From positions 248,001 through 312,000 of the forward strand of contig NZ_WUMK01000002.1 of assembly GCF_009827055.1 (NCBI RefSeq): a stretch of 64,000 nt of DNA, read 5' to 3'. This document shows, piece by piece, positions 1-8,383 of this stretch. The stretch comes from Shinella kummerowiae. GTDB taxonomy: Bacteria; Pseudomonadota; Alphaproteobacteria; Rhizobiales; Rhizobiaceae. A program made the position numbers and the translations under genes. Every line of letters starts with the position of its first letter. The first letter of the stretch is position 1. The notes beneath the pieces are model-generated. The model was not told the origin of the DNA, ran no database searches, and saw only the letters and a program-made list of their open reading frames with translations.

Positions 1-329
1 TGGAGCAGCAGCGGCGTGCCGCGGATGACGGTGCAGAAAACACGCGCAGCAACCTTCAGCGGCCACGGTCCCGTCACCTGCACCAGTCCGATCGGCACGG
101 CGAGGAAGAAGCCGAGGATCGAGGTGCTGAAGAGCATCAGCAAGGTCACGCCGACGCCATGGACGAGACGGTCGGAATATTTCGGCACCCAGTCCCAGCG
201 CATGAACCAGATGACGCAGAAGACCAGAAGAGCGGCGATCGCCATCAGCACGATGCGATGCGGCTTGAACATGCTCGCTTTCGTCGGCAGTTCGGTCAGC
301 GCGAGGGCGGAAATGGTCGGATCGCTCAT
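1..329 (-). CDS. Amino-acid ABC transporter permease (HisM/ArtM-like), 3' end beyond window
   Basis: Inner-membrane channel subunit of a polar amino-acid importer. The visible 109 codons start MSDPTISALAL. A hydrophobic segment lies at about residues 28-46 (RIVLMAIAALLVF) and a second at about 62-85. The piece ends in RGTPLLL, a signature of the His/Arg/Glu permease family, where RGTP-L-Q follows the second membrane span. The start codon overlaps the TGA of the preceding permease by one base (TGATG), so the two are translationally coupled and presumably form a heterodimer. The EAA loop and the C-terminus lie outside the window. The family is certain; the substrate (arginine or a related cation) is inferred only from the neighbouring catabolic genes. 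Confidence 0.88.
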   Translation of the reverse strand, partial: MSDPTISALALTELPTKASMFKPHRIVLMAIAALLVFCVIWFMRWDWVPKYSDRLVHGVGVTLLMLFSTSILGFFLAVPIGLVQVTGPWPLKVAARVFCTVIRGTPLLL

Positions 330-1057
330 CAGGCGGCCCTCGCCATGCCGCGCCGGTAGTGGCGCTCGATCAGGCCGATCAGCACGTTGGAGACCAGCGT
401 GATCATCAGGTAGAGCACGCCGGCCGCGCAGAAGAACAGCAGGTAGGCCTTGGTGCTGCCCGCCGCCTGGCGCGTCACCAGCGTCAACTCGCTGAAGCCG
501 ACGACTGCGAGCAGCGCCGTGTCCTTGGTGGCGATCAGCCAGAGATTGGAGAGGCCGGGAATGGCGTGCGGCAGCATGGCCGGCAGGGTGATGCGGCGCA
601 TGATCTGCGTGGGCGCCATACCATAGGCGCGCGCCGCCTCGATCTGTCCCGCCGGCACCGCCTTGATCGCGCCGCGCAGCACCTCCGTCGAATAGGCGCC
701 CTGCACGACGCCGATGACGAAGATGCCGGCCGCAAGGCCGCTGATATCGACCGGGCCGAAACCGACCAGCGCGGAGAACTGGTTCAGCACATCCGTGCCG
801 GCATAATAGAGAATGAGGATCAGCACGAGTTCCGGCACCGCGCGCACCAGGGTCGTGTAGATCTCGAGTAGGTCCTTGGTGACCGGGCCGCCATAGAGCT
901 TGCCCATGGCGCCGCCGGTACCGAGGATCAGGCCGAGCGTATAACCGCCGACGGCAATCTGGAGCGATTGCCAGAGCCCCGCCAGCATTACCCCGCCCCA
1001 GCCGGGTGGGTCAAAGGCAAGCAGGCTCCAGTTGATCAGCGATCCGGCATCGGCCAT
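329..1057 (-). CDS. Amino-acid ABC transporter permease (HisQ/ArtQ-like)
   Basis: A 242-residue inner-membrane permease, normal length for the HisQ/ArtQ family. It carries several hydrophobic spans and, in the middle third, an EAA loop (EAARAYGMAPTQIMRRITLP) that would dock on the ATPase. VRAVPELVLILILYY follows the pattern where family members have R-P-L. It is third in a minus-strand operon: ATPase, binding protein, this gene, then the partial permease, with which it overlaps by one base. A strong hairpin in the 70-base gap before it separates it from the binding-protein gene. The product works with that binding protein and ATPase in importing a basic amino acid; specificity is inferred from context. 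Confidence 0.9.
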   Translation of the reverse strand: MADAGSLINWSLLAFDPPGWGGVMLAGLWQSLQIAVGGYTLGLILGTGGAMGKLYGGPVTKDLLEIYTTLVRAVPELVLILILYYAGTDVLNQFSALVGFGPVDISGLAAGIFVIGVVQGAYSTEVLRGAIKAVPAGQIEAARAYGMAPTQIMRRITLPAMLPHAIPGLSNLWLIATKDTALLAVVGFSELTLVTRQAAGSTKAYLLFFCAAGVLYLMITLVSNVLIGLIERHYRRGMARAA

Positions 1058-1085
1058 AGGGTCTCGTGTCCGTTCGAGGAGATTA

Positions 1086-1107
1086 GCCGGCGGCGAAAAC
1101 CGCCGGC
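1086..1107 (-). repeat. Perfect 8-bp inverted repeat between binding-protein and permease genes
   Basis: GCCGGCGG and CCGCCGGC flank the loop CGAAAA. The hairpin lies 21 bases beyond the binding-protein stop codon in the transcript and before the permease start. Such hairpins often protect the upstream message or cause partial termination, so that binding protein is made in excess of permease. It has no T-tract, so processing/stability is more likely than full termination. The pst operon in this window has the same arrangement. Confidence 0.7.
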
Positions 1108-1127
1108 ATCAGGCACAGGGCAGACGA

Positions 1128-1910
1128 TCAGCCGCCGTAGATGTCGAAGTCGAAATACTTCTTCGAGAAGGTGTCGTAGGTGCCGTTGGCGCGGATCGCC
1201 TTGATCGCGGCGTTGATCTTGTCCTTCAACTCCGTCTCGCCCTTGCGCAGGCCGACGCCGACGCCGAGCCCGAGGACCTCCGGATCGTCCTTGACCATGC
1301 CTTTCATGTCGCAGCAGGCAGCGCCCTGCTCGCTCTTGAGGAATTCCAGCATGGCGACGGAGTCGGCCTGCACCGCATCGATGCGGCCTGCGGCGAGGTC
1401 GTTGTTGGCCTCGTCCTGCGTCTGGTATTCCTTGACCGTCACACCGGCGGGCGCAAAATACTTGTTGGCATAGACCTGGTGGATGGTCGCCACCTGCACG
1501 CCGAGCGTCTTGCCGTTGAGGCCTTCCGGCGTCGGCTCGAACTTGACGTCCTTCGGTCCGATAACGCCGGGAAGCGAGTTGTAGTATTTGTCTGAGAAGT
1601 CGATGGTCTGCTGGCGTTCTGCCGTGACCGACATCGAGCCGATGATCATATCGATCTTATTGGTGGTCAGCGCCGGGATGATGCCGTCCCAAGCGACCGG
1701 CGTGATGACGCAATCGAGCTTCGCTTCGGCGCAGATCGCCTTCATGAAGTCGACTTCCCAGCCCTGCCAGTTGCCCGAGGCGTCCGGCGAGGTGAAGGGC
1801 GGATAGGGCTCGGCGGCAAAACCGACGCGAACCTGCTGGGCGGCGGCACCGGAGACGGCGGCAAGGCCGATTGCGGCGGCAAGGGCGATTGTCTTCAAGG
1901 CACTCTTCAT
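1128..1910 (-). CDS. Periplasmic amino-acid binding protein (Lys/Arg/Orn-type)
   Basis: A 260-residue solute-binding protein of the HisJ/ArgT family. Residues 1-25 form a Sec signal peptide (MKSALKTIALAAAIGLAAVS, then GAAAQQ). The mature part begins VRVGFAAEPYPPFTSPD, the typical first strand around the ligand site. Later come GWEVDFMKAIC, MIIGSMSVTAERQQTIDFS and the domain-two stretch LNGKTLGVQVATIHQVYA. Paired cysteines in GAACCD and the C-terminal DIYGG are common in this family. It is encoded between the ATPase and the permeases, so it is the capture component of the same importer. Arginine, a methylarginine or another guanidino compound is the likely ligand given the divergent genes, but the ligand residues do not settle this. 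Confidence 0.92.
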   Translation of the reverse strand: MKSALKTIALAAAIGLAAVSGAAAQQVRVGFAAEPYPPFTSPDASGNWQGWEVDFMKAICAEAKLDCVITPVAWDGIIPALTTNKIDMIIGSMSVTAERQQTIDFSDKYYNSLPGVIGPKDVKFEPTPEGLNGKTLGVQVATIHQVYANKYFAPAGVTVKEYQTQDEANNDLAAGRIDAVQADSVAMLEFLKSEQGAACCDMKGMVKDDPEVLGLGVGVGLRKGETELKDKINAAIKAIRANGTYDTFSKKYFDFDIYGG

Positions 1911-1938
1911 GATCTTCCCTCTGTTGGTTTTTTTGATC

Positions 1939-2712
1939 TCAGTGGATGGAACTGATGAATTTCTTCAGCCGCTCCGATTTCGGTGCTCCGAACAGTTCGT
2001 CCGGCGGCCCCTGTTCCTCGATGACGCCATTCGCCAGAAAGACGACGTGGCTCGCGACGTTGCGCGCAAATTTCATTTCGTGGGTAACGAGGATCATCGT
2101 GCGCTTCTCCTTGGCGAGGTCGCCGATGACGGAGAGCACCTCGCCGACCAGCTCCGGGTCGAGCGCAGAGGTCGGTTCGTCGAAAAGCATGACATGGGGC
2201 TGGATGGCGAGCGCCCGGGCAATCGCCGCACGCTGCTGCTGGCCGCCGGAGAGGAAGGCGGGATAGGCGTCGCGCTTCTCGTAGAGGCCAACGCGGCGCA
2301 ACAGCGTCTCGGCGCGGGCGATCGCCTCGTCCTTCCTGACGCCGAGCACGTGCACCGGCGCCTCGATGACGTTTTCGAGGATGGTCATGTGCTGCCAGAG
2401 ATTGAAGCTTTGAAACACCATGCCGAGGCGGGAGCGCAGGCGCTGTACCTGCTTGCGGTCGGACGGCATCATGCCGCCATGGCCGTCCGCCTTCATGGCG
2501 ATGGTCTCGCCGTGGATGGTCACCGAGCCGGCGCTCGGCAGCTCCAGCATGTTGATGCAGCGCAGAAATGTCGACTTGCCGGAACCGGAACCGCCGATAA
2601 TGGCGATGACGTCGCCTTCATGCGCGGTGAGCGAAACCCCCTTGAGAACTTCAAGCGGCCCGAAGCGCTTGTGCAGGTCCCGGACCGCGATTGCCTCGGC
2701 ACGTTCCGTCAT
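1939..2712 (-). CDS. Amino-acid ABC transporter ATP-binding protein (HisP/ArtP-like)
   Basis: A 257-residue cytoplasmic ATPase. Walker A is GGSGSGKST (residues 40-48), the signature is LSGGQQQR, Walker B is VMLFDEPTSALD and the switch histidine is in LVTHEMKFARN. Length and motifs are standard for the HisP/GlnQ group. The start is set at MTERAEAI: the open frame runs 41 codons further upstream, but that stretch has no family similarity and would cover much of the divergent promoter region. It is the first gene of the minus-strand import operon, and powers the two permeases downstream. Confidence 0.92.
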   Translation of the reverse strand: MTERAEAIAVRDLHKRFGPLEVLKGVSLTAHEGDVIAIIGGSGSGKSTFLRCINMLELPSAGSVTIHGETIAMKADGHGGMMPSDRKQVQRLRSRLGMVFQSFNLWQHMTILENVIEAPVHVLGVRKDEAIARAETLLRRVGLYEKRDAYPAFLSGGQQQRAAIARALAIQPHVMLFDEPTSALDPELVGEVLSVIGDLAKEKRTMILVTHEMKFARNVASHVVFLANGVIEEQGPPDELFGAPKSERLKKFISSIH

Positions 2713-2835
2713 CGTGGAGAGGTCTCCAGCGCACGGAAAATCGATGCATGGATCATGCCAAACTTCCCCTGTTTTCCAGCGTTCCCGCGGGCATCTTCGG
2801 CCCGTCGTGTCGTCTTGTTGAAAGCATCGTGGCAC

Positions 2836-2863
2836 TTGTTAAGAAATTATTCAAGCGTATAAT
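2836..2863 (+). promoter_or_regulatory. Sigma-70-like promoter for the amidinohydrolase gene
   Basis: TTGTTA (2836-2841), a 16-base spacer and a perfect TATAAT (2858-2863) lie about 60 bases before the start at 2927. The segment around it is clearly AT-richer than the flanking genes. CTTG...CAAG (2835-2838 and 2852-2855) forms an imperfect palindrome between the two hexamers, which could be the operator of the nearby TetR-family regulator; that link is a guess. Confidence 0.6.
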
Positions 2864-2926
2864 AGACCAACCGCTGACTTTTCCGGCAGCGCCCACCCAT
2901 GATCCATTTTCCAGCAGGAGCATTGA

Positions 2927-3805
2927 ATGACCGCCTACGGTTCGCAGGAAATGTCGGCCCCCCTGATGCGCGTTCTGATGCGCCGCCCCGGCAACAGCCT
3001 GAAGGCTGCCGATCCCGCCAAGTGGCATTACGGCCCGACGTTCGATGGCGCGCGCGCCGTGCACCAGTACAAGGCCTTCGCCGAGCTGGTCGAAAAGTCC
3101 GGTACCGAGATCATCTGGCTGGAAGACGAGGGCGACGGCCTCGCAGATGCGATGTTCACCCACGATCCGTCCTTGATGTCCGACCACGGCGCGATCCTGC
3201 TGCGCATGGGCAAGCCGCTGCGCGTGGCGGAAACCGCCCTGCATGAAAAAGCCTACGCCGAGCGCCAGATCCCGATCCTCGGCCGCATCGAGGGCGACGG
3301 CACCGTCGAAGGCGGCGATTGCATCTGGCTCGATGCCAAGACGCTGGTCATCGGCCGCGGCGTGCGCACCAACCAGGAAGGCATCGACCAGATCTCGAAG
3401 ATCCTGGCGCCGCATGGTGTCACCGTGCTCGCCTATGACCTGCCGCTCTGGCACGGCGAGGAAGCCTGCCTGCACCTGATGAGCGTGATGAGCCCGCTTG
3501 CCGAAGACCTGGCGCTGGTCTTCGCGCCGCTGCTGCCGGCCGCCTTCTACCAATTGCTCAAGAAGCGCGGCATCCGCCTCATCGAGGCGCCGGCCGACGA
3601 ATTTCATGCGAGCAACGGCCTGTCGCTGAACGTGTTGCCGACGCGGCCCTACGAGGTCATCATGGTGGAAGGATTCCCGGCCACCAAGGCGGCGATGGAA
3701 GCGGCTGGCTGCACGGTACAGGTGTTTGAAGCCGACGCGCTCTGCATCGCCTGCGAAGGTGGCCCGACCTGCCTGACTCGGCCGGTGCTGCGCCGCGCCG
3801 CCTAA
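2927..3805 (+). CDS. Dimethylargininase / arginine deiminase-superfamily amidinohydrolase
   Basis: A 292-residue enzyme of the guanidino-modifying superfamily (DDAH, arginine deiminase, amidinotransferase), which attacks a guanidinium carbon with a cysteine. Visible landmarks in order are FTHDPS (77-82, where relatives have F-x-R-D-P), VEGGD (127-131), CLHLMSVMSPL with the presumed catalytic His183, and EGGPTCLTRP with the presumed nucleophile Cys282. The length is close to DDAH and far below bacterial ArcA (about 410), which favours a DDAH-like reaction (methylarginine to citrulline plus a methylamine) or a related guanidino hydrolase. AGGAG six bases before the ATG supports the start. It lies divergent from a basic amino-acid importer and upstream of aruH/aruI-like genes. 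The exact substrate is not readable from sequence. Confidence 0.82.
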   Translation: MTAYGSQEMSAPLMRVLMRRPGNSLKAADPAKWHYGPTFDGARAVHQYKAFAELVEKSGTEIIWLEDEGDGLADAMFTHDPSLMSDHGAILLRMGKPLRVAETALHEKAYAERQIPILGRIEGDGTVEGGDCIWLDAKTLVIGRGVRTNQEGIDQISKILAPHGVTVLAYDLPLWHGEEACLHLMSVMSPLAEDLALVFAPLLPAAFYQLLKKRGIRLIEAPADEFHASNGLSLNVLPTRPYEVIMVEGFPATKAAMEAAGCTVQVFEADALCIACEGGPTCLTRPVLRRAA

Positions 3806-3827
3806 GGCACCAACGAACGAGGACAAG

Positions 3828-4466
3828 ATGGCCCGCCGGACCTTCCACCGCGCCCCAGAGGCCGAACGCCGCCACGATCTGATCGAGGCGACGCTCGACT
3901 GCATCGCCGAATACGGCTTGCAGGGCGCAACGGTCCGGCAGATCGCCATCAAGGCGGGTGTGACGGCAGGGCTCATCCGGCACTATTTCCAGTCCAAGGA
4001 GCATATCCTCCAGGAGGCCTACCGCCTCGTCATCGCGCGGCTGACCGAAAAGGCCGAGCGGGTGACGGGCGATCCGGAAACGCGCCTGCGCGACTTCATC
4101 GTCATCAACCTGACGGAGCCAGTCGCCAACAGCCGCAGCCTCTCGCTCTGGGCCTCGTTCATCAGCCGGGTCAGCGTCGATCCCGAACTCGCCGCGATCC
4201 ACCGGGAAGGTTATCTGAGCTTTCGCAACGCGCTCGAAAGCCTGCTCGCCGATTTCCTCGCTGCCCGCGGCGCGGATGCCTCGCCGGAGCGCTGCCGCAA
4301 GCTCGCCATCGCCGTCAACGGGCTGCTCGATGGCCTCTGGCTGGAGGGTTGCCTCGCCGGCGAACTTTTCGGGGAGAGCGAACTTGTCGAGGTCGCCCTG
4401 ACCTCGATCGAAACCCTGCTTGGATTACCCCTCAGGCCGGTCGACGCTGCGAGCGCCGATCGCTAA
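3828..4466 (+). CDS. TetR-family regulator, BetI-like
   Basis: A 212-residue DNA-binding regulator. The N-terminal helix-turn-helix reads GATVRQIAIKAGVTAGLIRH followed by YFQSKEHIL (about residues 30-62), typical of TetR proteins. The longer C-terminal ligand domain with LSLWASFISRV and RLAIAVNGLLDGLWLEG-type segments resembles BetI-like members. GAGGA five bases before the ATG supports the start. It sits 22 bases after the amidinohydrolase gene and 31 bases before the aminotransferase gene, so it is co-transcribed and most simply controls this operon and perhaps the divergent importer. The inducer is unknown; a guanidino compound is the obvious candidate. Confidence 0.85.
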   Translation: MARRTFHRAPEAERRHDLIEATLDCIAEYGLQGATVRQIAIKAGVTAGLIRHYFQSKEHILQEAYRLVIARLTEKAERVTGDPETRLRDFIVINLTEPVANSRSLSLWASFISRVSVDPELAAIHREGYLSFRNALESLLADFLAARGADASPERCRKLAIAVNGLLDGLWLEGCLAGELFGESELVEVALTSIETLLGLPLRPVDAASADR

Positions 4467-4497
4467 ACCACACCCAATTGAAATGCAGAGGACGGCC

Positions 4498-5688
4498 ATG
4501 CGCTACGCTTCCATCACAGACCGGCTTGCCAATCTCGGCTCGGAAAAATGGGCCATCCATGCCGAAGCCCGGCGGATGAAGAAGGACGGCAAGGCCATCA
4601 TCGAGCTCACCATCGGCGAGCCGGATGTCGCCCCGGACCCGATGCTGCTCGCCGAGGCCGTGCGCGCCATGCAGGCGGGCCGCCACCGTTATTCCAACGG
4701 CCGGGGAGAGCCCTCCGTCGTGGACGCCCTCGTGCGAAAATACCGCAAGCGCCGCAGCGATGTGACCGCCGAAAACGTGCTGTGTTTCCCGGGTACCCAG
4801 ACCGCCCTCTTCGCCGTCATGCTCGGCCTCGTCGAGGCGGGCGATACCGTGCTCGTCGGCGACCCGCTTTATGCCACCTACGAAGGCGTCATCCGCTCCA
4901 CTGGCGCCGAGCATATTGTTGTACCGCTGCGCCCGGAAAACGGTTTCCACATGAAGGCCGCCGATCTTGAGGCCGCGATCACGCCCGAATGCCGCGCGCT
5001 GCTGCTCAACACGCCGCACAACCCCACCGGCGCGGTGCTGAGCGCGCAAGAAATCGCCGAGATCGGTGCCGTTTGCCGCAAACATGATCTCTGGATCGTC
5101 TGCGATGAGGTCTACGAACAGCTCGTCTTTGGCGCCGCCTTTGCCTCGCCCTTCGACAATCCGGACCTCGCCGAGCGCACCATCGTCGTCTCTTCCATCT
5201 CGAAATCCCATGCCGCACCGGGCTTCCGCAGTGGCTGGGCGATCGGGCCGTCTGAATTCTGCACGCGACTGCTTTCGGTATCCGAAACCATGCTGTTCGG
5301 CGGCCAGCCTTTCATCGCCGACATGACAGCCTATGCGCTCGACAACCCGATCACCACCGCCGCCACGATGCGCCGGATTTACCAGGGGCGCGCCACCCGG
5401 TTCGCCACGGCGCTCGCCAAGGCTCCCGGTCTCGTGCCGTTGCCGCCGGAAGCCGGCATGTTCATCGTCGTAGACGTCGCGGGAACAGGCCTGAGCGGTG
5501 AGGATTTCGCCTGGGCGCTGCTGCGCGAGGAACTGGTCGCCGTCATGCCGGGATCGTCGTTCGGCGACGCGGCGGCAGACTATATCCGCCTCAGCCTGAC
5601 CGTGCCCGACGACCATATCGACGAGGCCTGCCGGCGCATCGCAGCGCTCGCCGCCCGATCCGCAAGCCCCAAGGAGCGCCGCGCATGA
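4498..5688 (+). CDS. aruH: PLP-dependent aminotransferase, arginine:pyruvate transaminase (AruH)-like
   Basis: A 396-residue class I/II aminotransferase. Motifs in order: GEPD near 40, NTPHNPTGAVLS (171-182), CDEVYEQLVFG (202-212) and the PLP lysine in SSISKSHAAPGFRSGW (Lys236). From memory, the N-terminus MRYASITDRLAN and the segments YSNGRGEPS and PLYATYEGVIRSTGAE follow Pseudomonas AruH closely. AruH converts L-arginine and pyruvate to 2-ketoarginine and alanine. The start at 4498 is chosen over ATG 4483 because AGAGGA lies at 4486-4491, correctly spaced for 4498. It overlaps the following AruI-like gene by four bases (ATGA). Pairing with an AruI-like decarboxylase makes the assignment stronger than for an isolated aminotransferase. 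Confidence 0.82.
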   Translation: MRYASITDRLANLGSEKWAIHAEARRMKKDGKAIIELTIGEPDVAPDPMLLAEAVRAMQAGRHRYSNGRGEPSVVDALVRKYRKRRSDVTAENVLCFPGTQTALFAVMLGLVEAGDTVLVGDPLYATYEGVIRSTGAEHIVVPLRPENGFHMKAADLEAAITPECRALLLNTPHNPTGAVLSAQEIAEIGAVCRKHDLWIVCDEVYEQLVFGAAFASPFDNPDLAERTIVVSSISKSHAAPGFRSGWAIGPSEFCTRLLSVSETMLFGGQPFIADMTAYALDNPITTAATMRRIYQGRATRFATALAKAPGLVPLPPEAGMFIVVDVAGTGLSGEDFAWALLREELVAVMPGSSFGDAAADYIRLSLTVPDDHIDEACRRIAALAARSASPKERRA

Positions 5689-7292
5689 CCACGAAAACCG
5701 TAGGCGAAGTTCTCGTCGACCTGCTCGAAGCCAATGGCGTCGAGGTGGTTTTCGGCATTCCGGGCGTGCATACGGTCGAGCTCTATCGCGGGCTCGCCGC
5801 CTCAAAAATCCGCCACATCACGCCGCGCCACGAACAGGGCGCCGGCTTCATGGCCGACGGTTATGCTCGCGTCTCGGGCAAGCCTGGCGTTGCCCTCGTC
5901 ATCACCGGCCCCGGCCTCACCAACACGATCACCGCCATGGCGCAGGCGCGGCAGGATTCCGTGCCGATGCTGGTCATCTCTGGCGTCAACCGGCGCGATT
6001 CGCTTGGCCATGGCCGTGGCCTGCTGCATGAACTGCCGGACCAGCAGGGCATGATGAAGACGCTGGCGCTCTATTCGCACACGCTACTCAACCCCGCCGA
6101 CCTGCCGCTCGTCGTGGAGCGCGCCTTCGCGGTTCTGCTCTCCGGTCGGCCCGGCCCGGTGCATATCGAAATCCCGACCGACGTGATGGCAAAACCCATC
6201 GAGACCGGCAGCTTTCCCGCGACCGTCGCGACCCGACCGCGCGCCGATGCCGAAACGCTTCAGCGTGCCGCGATCCTCTGCACCAACGCATCCCGCCCCG
6301 TCATTCTTGCCGGTGGCGGCGCGATCACGGCGGAAGAGGAAATCCGTGAACTCGCCGAGCGCATCGGTGCGCCCGTCGTCACCACGGTCAATGGACGCGG
6401 TCTGCTCGGCGGCCATCCGCTACGCATCCCGGCAAGCCCCAGCCTGAAGGCCGTGCGGCGGCTTCTTTCCGATGCCGATCTCGTCGTCGCCTTCGGCACG
6501 GAGTTCGGTCCGACCGACTACGACATCAATGTCGATGGCGGGTTCCCGCGCCTCAAGACATTGATCCGCATCGATATCGACGCCGCCCAGCTTGCCCGCA
6601 CGCCGCAATCCGCCCTGTCGATCTTCTCCAGCGCCAAGACGGCAGCAGCCGGCATGCTGGGTTTCCTCGAGGGCCACAAGCCGATCAGCAATGGCGCGGC
6701 GCGTGCCGAGACCGTGCGGAAAAACGCCTGGAACGAGCTGACGGCGAAAATGCAGTCGGAAGTGCGCGTCATCGATGCGATCTGGAAAACGCTGCCGAAG
6801 GCGATCATCGTCGGCGATTCCACGCAGGCCGTCTATGCCGGCAACTACTATTGCGATGCGCCGCGTGTGCGCAGCTGGTTCAACGCAGCGACCGGTTATG
6901 GCGCACTCGGTTTCGCGCCGCCGGCGGCCGTGGGCGCAGCCCTCGCCGAACCCGATGCACCGGTCATCTGCCTCGTCGGCGATGGCGGCTTGCAATTCTC
7001 GCTTTCGGAAATCGGATCGGCGGTGGATGCGGGAGCCTGCGTCGTCTTCCTTGTCTGGAACAATGACGGCTACCAGGAGATCGAGAACTACATGGTCGAT
7101 GCCGGCATCACGCCGGAGGGAGTAAAACCCTCGGCACCCGATTTCATCGCGATCGGCGCCGCCTACGGCCTGCCCTCCGAACGCCTGGCCGACGTGCGCG
7201 ATCTCCCGGCGTCCCTGGAGCGGGCCGCGGCTCGGACGGGCCCGAGCCTCGTCGAAATCCACCAGACGAAAACAATCGGAGCGACGGCGTAG
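5685..7292 (+). CDS. aruI: Thiamine-diphosphate decarboxylase, 2-ketoarginine decarboxylase (AruI)-like
   Basis: A 535-residue enzyme of the acetolactate synthase/benzoylformate decarboxylase family. The N-terminal PYR domain has VVFGIPGVHTVELYRG and the catalytic glutamate region PRHEQGAGFMADGYAR (about 48-63). The central domain has PVILAGGGAITAEEE. The C-terminal PP domain has the thiamine/Mg motif GDGGLQFSLSEIGSA followed by WNNDGYQEIENYM. Coupled by an ATGA overlap to the AruH-like aminotransferase, it is most likely the decarboxylase that turns 5-guanidino-2-oxopentanoate into 4-guanidinobutyraldehyde. A generic acetolactate-synthase-like role cannot be excluded from motifs alone. The dehydrogenase and guanidinobutyrase needed next are not in this window. 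Confidence 0.82.
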   Translation: MTTKTVGEVLVDLLEANGVEVVFGIPGVHTVELYRGLAASKIRHITPRHEQGAGFMADGYARVSGKPGVALVITGPGLTNTITAMAQARQDSVPMLVISGVNRRDSLGHGRGLLHELPDQQGMMKTLALYSHTLLNPADLPLVVERAFAVLLSGRPGPVHIEIPTDVMAKPIETGSFPATVATRPRADAETLQRAAILCTNASRPVILAGGGAITAEEEIRELAERIGAPVVTTVNGRGLLGGHPLRIPASPSLKAVRRLLSDADLVVAFGTEFGPTDYDINVDGGFPRLKTLIRIDIDAAQLARTPQSALSIFSSAKTAAAGMLGFLEGHKPISNGAARAETVRKNAWNELTAKMQSEVRVIDAIWKTLPKAIIVGDSTQAVYAGNYYCDAPRVRSWFNAATGYGALGFAPPAAVGAALAEPDAPVICLVGDGGLQFSLSEIGSAVDAGACVVFLVWNNDGYQEIENYMVDAGITPEGVKPSAPDFIAIGAAYGLPSERLADVRDLPASLERAAARTGPSLVEIHQTKTIGATA

Positions 7293-7333: not shown

Positions 7334-7495
7334 CGTGAAAGTGCGCACGCGCCCTCTGGAGTGACCCATGAGCGCGGGAAACCCTGTTGGCGGGCTCACC
7401 TGCGCCTTTGCAAATCGTGTTTTATTTGTCATGGATGCGGCATTGTCTGCCGCCCAACCGCGCGCGCGGTAATCGAAAGCAAGTCGGATACAGGG

Positions 7496-8383
7496 GTGGC
7501 CAACCAATACACGTTTCCAGGACCGGTTTACAAACGGCTGCCGCCCGACATGCGGCCGCCGTCGCCGTCGCTTGCCCAGCGTTTTCTCGACTGGATACCG
7601 GTGCATGACTTTATGGCGGCCCGGTCCGGTTTTACCAGCCGCTTCAACCGCACCGTCGCACGCCTCGCCACGGAAGGCGGGTCGGGATTGTCCGCCGCGC
7701 AGAGCCACTTCCATTTTGGCGATGCCCTGTTCCTAACGATCGATCCGAAAATCGTGCGCACGCGACTGCGCGACAACTTTTTCGACGGCAACCGTCCACG
7801 GTGGATCGGCCGGCATTTTCTCGATGGCGGCGACTGGAGACCGATCCTGCAGCCGATCAACAGATCGTTCTCCCATGAGGAAATCGTGGAGATCTGCCAG
7901 CTGCGTCGGAATTTTCGCGAAGGCCTCTGCTATCGCCGTTATGCCGACAACATCAACAGCGGCGTAGCGGTGCGGCGAAATCGCGTGACCATCAATACGA
8001 TCGACAAGCTAGACAGCTACTTCGAGTACTATCTCGCCCTTATCGAGAACATCGAGGAGAATGGGATCGTGCCGCGTGGTGATCTCGGCCTGAAGGACCA
8101 GACCAGCCAATGGCACCGCTGGACACGTTCGCTGTGGCAGGATCTCGCCGAACGCGACATCGGCGTTGCGATCGATGCCAGCGGACGCCTTGTGCGCCAC
8201 ACCAGCGGCAAGCACCGCATGGCGGCAGCACTTGCCCTCGGTATCGACAGTGTTCCCGTCGAAATCCGCCTCGTTCATGCCGGCTGGCTGCTGCGACGCT
8301 CCGAGCGCCTGGGACTTTCTCCGGAGGAAGCCCTGCTTGCCACGATCAAGCGCGCCCGCCTGAAGGGATGGCCCGTAAAATAA
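7496..8383 (+). CDS. Unknown protein with C-terminal ParB-like (ParB/sulfiredoxin fold) segment
   Basis: About 295 residues from the GTG at 7496; ATG 7550 and a GTG at 7361 are alternatives. The frame upstream of 7496 is cysteine-rich and looks non-coding, so the longest version is unlikely. The one recognisable region is near the C-terminus: a DASGRLVRHTSGKHRMAAAL stretch followed by ALGIDSVPVEIRLVH matches the ParB-like pattern in which a Gly-x-His-Arg loop binds nucleotide and a hydrophobic strand follows. The earlier part is rich in Arg/Phe/Tyr (RRNFREGLCYRRYADN) with no known motif, no signal peptide and no membrane span. It stands alone between two inverted repeats, and its composition looks less GC-extreme than the neighbours. 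Function unknown; such domains in lone rhizobial proteins need not act in partitioning. Confidence 0.6.
   Translation: MANQYTFPGPVYKRLPPDMRPPSPSLAQRFLDWIPVHDFMAARSGFTSRFNRTVARLATEGGSGLSAAQSHFHFGDALFLTIDPKIVRTRLRDNFFDGNRPRWIGRHFLDGGDWRPILQPINRSFSHEEIVEICQLRRNFREGLCYRRYADNINSGVAVRRNRVTINTIDKLDSYFEYYLALIENIEENGIVPRGDLGLKDQTSQWHRWTRSLWQDLAERDIGVAIDASGRLVRHTSGKHRMAAALALGIDSVPVEIRLVHAGWLLRRSERLGLSPEEALLATIKRARLKGWPVK

Follow-up and report, generated by a model that had tools for sequence, protein, structure and literature searches.

Which compound does a bacterium take up and degrade when an importer for basic amino acids is encoded back to back with a predicted guanidino-group hydrolase and an arginine-type transamination route? 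The question is raised by the first 7,292 nucleotides of a 64,000-nucleotide stretch of Shinella kummerowiae DNA (contig NZ_WUMK01000002.1, positions 248,001 to 312,000; the whole stretch is called the window here). Open reading frames and Pfam and NCBIfam scans place a basic amino-acid ATP-binding cassette (ABC) importer on the minus strand, divergent from a plus-strand operon for a hydrolase resembling dimethylarginine dimethylaminohydrolase (DDAH; this DDAH-like enzyme is called DDAHL), a TetR-family regulator, an aminotransferase (AT) and a thiamine pyrophosphate-dependent decarboxylase of the AruI family (TPP). These genes, named in an earlier note on this DNA, are real. The genome harbouring the window measures 6.3 Mb, and the named matches at 94-97% identity are from Shinella; G and L numbers are our handles for genomes and loci.

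The block is a real, conserved catabolic unit and not a one-off. Its parts are of known kinds; what is new is the DDAHL lineage and its pairing with an AruI-type route. We propose that the block may scavenge methylated or other arginine derivatives, with DDAHL as a separately evolved DDAH lineage for N-omega-methylarginine, a reading that we hold to be almost evenly balanced and a shade on the doubtful side. The block is laid out as follows.

1..329, minus: HisM-type ABC permease, C-terminal part, the rest lying beyond the window edge (whole gene in L093, 9511-10329)
329..1057, minus: HisQ-type ABC permease (PF00528; HisQ model 179 bits, under the cut-off of 319)
1128..1910, minus: periplasmic binding protein of the lysine/arginine/ornithine-histidine (LAO/HisJ) type (TIGR01096 240.7 bits, under the cut-off of 256.35)
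1939..2712, minus: ABC ATPase of HisP/GlnQ type (start at 2712 placed from 257-aa homologues)
2836..2863, plus: sigma-70-like promoter, TTGTTA-16-TATAAT, 5' of DDAHL (hexamer search, intergenic conservation)
2927..3805, plus: DDAHL, predicted DDAH-like guanidino-group hydrolase, 292 aa (D74, D80, R99, E128, R147, H183, C282)
3828..4466, plus: TetR-family regulator with a BetI-type C-terminal domain (family scans)
about 4498..5688, plus: class I/II pyridoxal phosphate aminotransferase, AruH/AspC-like (start placed from 396-aa homologues)
5685..7292, plus: TPP-dependent 2-oxo acid decarboxylase, AruI family (above the NF005712 cut-off)
L093, 8327-9496, minus, outside the window: M20D amidohydrolase, 389 aa, directly downstream of HisM (TIGR01891 381 bits, cut-off 153.75)

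Conservation of the block and its alternation with Pseudomonas-type DDAH

The possibility that this gene order is unique to one genome is excluded. DDAHL (at least 55% identity; the next group reaches at most 34%) occurs in 41 of the 151 genomes sampled from Rhizobiaceae, the family of the window, and at the cut-offs used a binding-protein gene lies within 3 kb of it in 36 of the 41, with TPP near 32, AT near 18 and M20D near 11. Those cut-offs (DDAHL, E 1e-100 or 1e-40; DDAH, 1e-25; binding protein, 1e-95 or 1e-90) were fixed before the cross-counts; the one for the binding protein does not coincide with a natural gap, and it misses at least one true block, that of G081, which has no binding protein above the cut-off near DDAHL, yet carries a 60% copy (L176). 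The named hosts include Shinella, Rhizobium, Pararhizobium and Mycoplana, among others, and, outside the family by label, Ancylobacter (Xanthobacteraceae) and Martelella (Aurantimonadaceae). The complete set, importer and M20D on one side and DDAHL, TetR, AT and TPP on the other, is present in 45 of 84 blocks compared, which were mostly picked through DDAHL and are not a random sample.

The main support for a DDAHL substrate is correlative and comes from the pattern of exclusion between DDAHL and the Pseudomonas-type DDAH (35-43% identical to the P. aeruginosa enzyme), whose Rhizobiaceae members we treat as predicted DDAHs. Three sets of counts describe it. First, the family sample of 151 genomes contains 41 with DDAHL, 24 with DDAH and none with both, where 6.5 would be expected if the two were independent. 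Second, the binding protein is found in 50 of these genomes, together with DDAHL in 37, DDAH in 11 and neither in two (G083 and G140), that is, with exactly one of the enzymes in 48 of 50; DDAH is present in 11 of the 13 genomes with a binding protein but no DDAHL, versus 13 of the 97 lacking both (Fisher P 3.5e-7, kinship of the genomes not being removed). Third, an order-level sample of 297 genomes, six of which overlap with the first sample, has DDAHL in 30 (at E 1e-40, which takes in a clade of 37-43% identity), DDAH in 39 and both in none; its 15 binding-protein genomes divide into ten with DDAHL, three with DDAH and two with neither, or seven, three and two for the 12 that are new.

The replacement is also visible within the block. 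L114, L115 and L116, from two genera, lack DDAHL and carry inside the block, next to HisM or M20D, a DDAH 38-40% identical to the P. aeruginosa enzyme. In L117 and L120 the first gene of a paralogous importer operon, which has M20D at its end, encodes a DDAH, and in L182, L190 and L191 a DDAH adjoins a similar importer; overall, 8 of the 24 DDAH genes stand beside an importer of the block's type. All 24 encoded proteins retain the Cys and the Lys. On the importer-protein tree the DDAHL label needs at least seven changes, five of them forced by well supported branches.

PF19420 proteins were considered as a second DDAH in DDAHL genomes, which would have undone the exclusion, and rejected: nine such genomes have a second match of 25-29% identity, and the four proteins read (two of them family-scanned) all carry HID and lack the alpha-amino Asp, while none in the other five reaches E 1e-25 with the P. 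aeruginosa enzyme. A separate observation in DDAHL genomes is an M20-like protein of ~530 aa paired with an HID-type PF19420 protein (L234 10780-13318, L235, L236, L237); in L234 the pair lies ~1.8 kb from the block.

Active site, fold and family position of DDAHL

Cys282, His183 and the VEGGD motif are present where the earlier note had placed them. His183, Cys282, Glu128, Asp74, Asp80, Arg99 and Arg147 are identical in all 78 aligned homologues (84 sequences were gathered, of which the truncated L092 was dropped by length and the Cys-less L086-L090 were set apart; the 78 rows hold 73 different sequences, some genomes having entered twice through two tools). DDAHL residues D74, D80, R99, E128, R147, H183 and C282 align with D60, D66, R85, E114, R132, H162 and C249 of P. 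aeruginosa DDAH. For the contact residues the roles come partly from passages of PMC11659421. By predicted fold and alignment, DDAHL has the Cys-His-Glu triad in an alpha/beta-propeller fold, together with equivalents of the guanidino Asp66 and of the amino-acid contacts Asp60, Arg85 and Arg132; Asp74, the alpha-amino contact by this comparison, is retained in all 42 DDAHL rows among the sequences used for the tree.

What sets DDAHL apart is position 185, two residues after the His, which is Met in 77 of 78 sequences and Leu in one and gives HLM, neither HxD nor HxK. According to passages of the papers concerned, the second Asp of arginine deiminase (in HxD) contacts the guanidino group (PMC11659421), as part of a two-Asp rule (PMC9007349), and the Lys of DDAH at the same site is associated with space for the dimethylamino group (PMC11659421). 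Two points lead us to propose that N-omega-methylarginine may be cleaved: DDAHL has Met where arginine deiminase has its second guanidino Asp, and DDAHL and the Pseudomonas-type DDAH seem to be mutual substitutes.

An alternative is that the substrate is some other substituted guanidino amino acid of plant or microbial origin, such as canavanine, N-hydroxyarginine, homoarginine or the like. The pocket residues would suit an L-amino acid with a substituted guanidino group, Met185 may provide a hydrophobic leaving-group side, and the named hosts are mostly relatives of Rhizobium. The alternation with Pseudomonas-type DDAH, in contrast, favours methylarginine, and literature searches naming canavanine showed no canavanine gene cluster of the same make-up; we judge this alternative unlikely.

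The structural comparison is less discriminating. For an AlphaFold2 model of DDAHL (pLDDT 91) the top Foldseek match is P. aeruginosa DDAH (E 7.6e-20), which sequence searches also rank first, and VIA aligns the model to 1h70 with Z 30.9 over 251 residues and a root-mean-square deviation of 2.0. Because the VIA scores of deiminases, DDAH, NnhA and ArgZ all fall within about 4 Z units and their Foldseek ranks are also close, the fold predicted for DDAHL does not by itself decide its function.

Sequence groups are sharper. In an unrooted tree, the DDAHL branch (98/95), the Pseudomonas-type DDAH (100/100) and the other relatives (98/97) each lie on one side of a branch; the P. aeruginosa enzyme, the sole characterised DDAH included, has a long branch, and the program warned of long branches meeting. 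The active-site signatures follow the same division: FTHD or a close variant, HLMS and EGGPTCLTRP in operon-type DDAHL; F[VI]ED, H[LF]K and SC[ML]SLR in Pseudomonas-type DDAH; and a third group of eleven other relatives with HxD in all except a Haladaptatus protein. Membership of DDAHL in the Pseudomonas-type DDAH family is excluded by tree and signature, and membership in ArcA or ArgZ by family scores and signature (ArcA model TIGR01078, 64 bits of 489; ArgZ models NF052232 and NF052231, no match at E 0.001). No viral relatives of DDAHL were confirmed.

More distant relatives were noted alongside. The sister clade of 37-43% identity retains HLMS and GGPTC, with Y in place of F; its members (L161-L169) belong to other Hyphomicrobiales families and have varied neighbourhoods, with no importer of the block's type seen. 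The Haladaptatus protein (31%; L099 6953-7831, a plasmid of Haladaptatus caseinilyticus) aligns without HxD and without the catalytic Cys, and adjoins an aminotransferase, with a nitrilase-type hydrolase nearby. A further guanidino-type cluster, likewise uncharacterised, is on a plasmid of Kozakia baliensis (L097 5875-12464), where a 30% relative with HID is accompanied by an amino-acid importer, by two M20 genes and by polysaccharide-deacetylase genes.

DDAHL could also be an L-arginine deiminase or dihydrolase in an ordinary arginine-use operon, turning arginine into citrulline or ornithine on one side while transamination and decarboxylation proceed on the other. The importer, AT and TPP are of arginine/ornithine types, and the structural scores give no distinction between deiminase, DDAH and ArgZ. 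Passages of PMC7268258 fit as well: in Sinorhizobium meliloti, AspC (SMc02262) uses pyruvate to transaminate arginine, agmatine, ornithine and putrescine, IlvB1 (SMc02263) is a sevenfold better decarboxylase of 5-amino-2-oxopentanoate than of the guanidino acid, and both are described as promiscuous. Against this, DDAHL has Met in place of the HxD Asp, the arginine dihydrolase models find no match, the genome already has a separate ArcA-type protein (L094, PF02274, 398 bits), and the exclusion between DDAHL and Pseudomonas-type DDAH is left unexplained, which makes a plain arginine enzyme improbable in our view.

The methylarginine reading has a considerable list of observations weighing against it. 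Some concern the enzyme: DDAHL forms a clade of its own and does not group with the characterised DDAH, so that the earlier note's likeness to DDAH did not extend to the tree; it scores far below the cut-offs of three dimethylargininase models (82 of 340, 75 of 450 and 23.5 of 300 bits); and arginine deiminases score alike in VIA (Z 30.3 to 32.5). Others concern the comparison DDAHs, 18 of 24 of which have Asp at the catalytic Glu114 site (L114, L116, L117 and L120, for example), while the five that were scored reach 199.6 to 235 bits, all below an equivalog cut-off of 450. A third set concerns the linkage. In-block DDAH comes from a single importer clade of three genomes, and 8 of the 11 DDAHs in importer genomes lie outside the block and are linked by presence only. 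On our reading of the importer tree, seven importer lineages lack DDAHL, of which four have DDAH in the genome, one is mixed and two have neither; the genomes that have the importer but lack both enzymes are G083, G140, G204 and G240. Hypergeometric values of 2.3e-4 and 0.012 are too strong, the genomes being related. The Cys is also kept, with no importer in the stretch read, in L158-L160 (57-58% relatives from other families; the L158 stretch ends 0.8 kb beyond the DDAHL gene) and in the sister clade, and DDAHL is therefore not tied to the importer everywhere.

Block variants and the 2-oxo acid branch

The transaminase half supports the earlier note in part. The AruI-like ketoacid decarboxylase stands (790 bits with NF005712, whose cut-off is 500), and the AT and TPP frames share 4 bases in the window. 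The AT reaches no curated cut-off among the best 25 of 92 families, the nearest named one being GntC (244 of 415 bits). The idea of a unit for arginine or methylarginine likewise survives in part: the conserved importer and arginine-type genes support it, and exclusion and in-block replacement point to methylarginine, whereas the AruHI half looks less guanidino-specific, given S. meliloti IlvB1 in passages of PMC7268258, and the AT is absent from many blocks. The lack of the later genes, as noted earlier, applies to the block alone: ureohydrolase-family matches, which may or may not include a guanidinobutyrase, number eight elsewhere in the genome (one of them is weak, and two lie at contig ends and are possibly one gene).

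In 16 of the 41 genomes, the binding protein, DDAHL and TPP occur together with no AT above the cut-off, and on reading these 16 regions an AT relative was seen only in L231, at 36%. An Ldh_2-family gene occupies the usual place of M20D in the importer operon of 13 of them, the others being L224, L226 and L231, and one also adjoins the importer of G080, which lies on a contig (L233) apart from a DDAHL gene that keeps its Cys. The Ldh_2 genes were called from an identity of about 60% upwards with the L218 protein, with PF02615 scanned in L216, L218 and L177 only. Among solved structures, delta1-piperideine-2-carboxylate reductase is nearest to the L218 protein (E 1.7e-46; the next, 8e-32). This reductase likewise acts on delta1-pyrroline-2-carboxylate, which is 5-amino-2-oxopentanoate in cyclic form. 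Because the open form is the preferred substrate of S. meliloti IlvB1, both versions of the block, with AT or with Ldh_2, seem to be built round an arginine-family 2-oxo acid.

Smaller versions exist as well. A block reduced to importer and DDAHL, with AT, TPP and M20D all missing at the cut-offs, is found in L129, G102, G032 and G064, the last of which has an Ldh_2 gene. L132 looks alike, but lies at a contig end, and AT and TPP start another contig of the same genome; the importer-DDAHL block of G095 is cut by a contig end. L131 and L098 (a plasmid of Rhizobium sp. AB2/73) have importer, DDAHL, TetR and AT without TPP.

These variants bear on a further alternative, that DDAHL acts on a product of AT or TPP (2-ketoarginine or 4-guanidinobutyrate) in a linear pathway to a ureido acid and gamma-aminobutyrate. 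The 16 AT-less genomes with DDAHL close to TPP would suit it, as would the four-base overlap of the DDAHL and TPP frames in G062 (L225) and a 58% DDAHL beside genes for an aldehyde dehydrogenase and an isochorismatase-fold protein in L158 (6453-9370), whose gene sizes and order recur in L159. The full retention of Asp74, an alpha-amino contact unneeded for such substrates, speaks against it, as do the blocks with importer and DDAHL but no AT, TPP or M20D (G102, G032 and G064, the last with Ldh_2; G095 contig-cut), and we regard a linear pathway as very unlikely. The L158 neighbourhood is a different pathway context for the DDAHL enzyme family.

Away from the importer, loss of the catalytic Cys is limited to one clade (L086-L090, G009 and G113), while G080 and L158-L160 keep it. 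In the lone loci L086-L090 (10001-10879) Cys282 is Gly and no importer is present; G009, G113 and G094 likewise have Gly and no importer seen near DDAHL, L086, G094 and L128 being the same in sequence. Since the Cys-less genes form one clade, a single loss event follows, and their proteins are possibly non-catalytic or repurposed. Cys-less DDAHL genes in L130 and L197, also without an importer, still adjoin AT.

A version of the block without DDAHL, in the order binding protein, ATPase, TetR, AT, TPP, is present in L118, L119 and L133. To judge from locus numbers, S. meliloti aspC and ilvB1 seem to sit in this version; SMc02259 is given as a lysine-arginine-ornithine binding protein in a passage of PMC4941405. 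Deletion of aspC lowered nodule nitrogenase activity by 51%, and the passages of PMC7268258 that report this do not place ilvB1 among the symbiosis genes.

A proposed route and known systems

In the route that we favour, the importer would take up a cationic amino acid, in keeping with its family, its linkage and the closest solved structures to its binding protein (cationic amino acid, HisJ and LAO binding proteins), and M20D would free such an amino acid from an N-acyl conjugate. By comparison with DDAH, Cys282, His183 and Glu128 of DDAHL would attack the guanidino carbon, with Asp80 gripping one guanidino side and Asp74, Arg99 and Arg147 the amino-acid end, and N-omega-monomethylarginine or asymmetric dimethylarginine would be cleaved to citrulline and methylamine or dimethylamine. 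Arginine-family amino acids unused by DDAHL (arginine, ornithine, perhaps symmetric dimethylarginine) would pass through AT and TPP to 2-oxo acids and then C4 aldehydes, which general dehydrogenases may complete, as S. meliloti AspC and IlvB1 suggest.

Control of both divergent operons would fall to the TetR protein. It has the BetI-type C-terminal domain, in line with its earlier description as BetI-like, and is not BetI itself (TIGR03384, 99 bits against a cut-off of 201). The promoter-like TTGTTA-16-TATAAT occurs once before DDAHL, against 0.1 expected in shuffled sequence, and the surroundings of its second hexamer are among the best conserved parts of the divergent intergenic region; a script search of that region in the window found no inverted repeat above its filter as a TetR operator candidate. 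Beyond the operon, an open reading frame at 7361-8383 on the plus strand (340 aa) has no Pfam or NCBIfam match, and homologues of 57-64% identity adjoin the block in some Shinella loci.

A more specific and distinctly more tentative version is that HLM-type DDAHL may be a second, independently evolved class of dimethylargininase, which, across many Rhizobiaceae as well as in Ancylobacter (Xanthobacteraceae), would take the place of the Pseudomonas-type enzyme. Its partner would be a dedicated methylarginine importer with two interchangeable companions, either an Ldh_2-type enzyme or an amidohydrolase together with the transaminase, which would supply a 2-oxo acid decarboxylase. Free methylarginines arise from the turnover of methylated proteins. 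Our literature search found no publication on methylarginine import or use by rhizobia, and none describing such a unit stood out. Should DDAHL be a dimethylargininase, a whole clade of such enzymes is concealed under the label 'arginine deiminase family protein', the exclusion pattern offers a direct and cheap test, and S. meliloti aspC would belong to a wider arginine-derivative unit.

Among known systems, DDAH (EC 3.5.3.18, P. aeruginosa type) resembles DDAHL in fold, triad, first guanidino Asp, alpha-amino Asp, two carboxylate Arg residues and lack of HxD. DDAHL differs in being about 25-27% identical to it, in a separate clade with another signature and scores far below the family cut-offs, and in having Met185 where DDAH has the Lys of HxK. 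ArcA shares the superfamily, the triad and the first Asp, whereas DDAHL lacks HxD and has 292 aa against about 400-430 for solved ArcA. LAO/HisJ-type importers with M20D match the block in having four importer genes with an amidohydrolase gene after them; here, in contrast, the importer is linked across to DDAHL, AT and TPP. Finally, AruH-AruI of Pseudomonas and AspC-IlvB1 of S. meliloti are matched by a TPP above the AruI-family cut-off and by adjacent AT and TPP genes with a 4-base overlap, and the gene order appears, from the locus tags in passages on S. meliloti, to be that of its numbered genes; the present block differs in that DDAHL and a regulator precede AT and TPP and in that AT is absent from many blocks.

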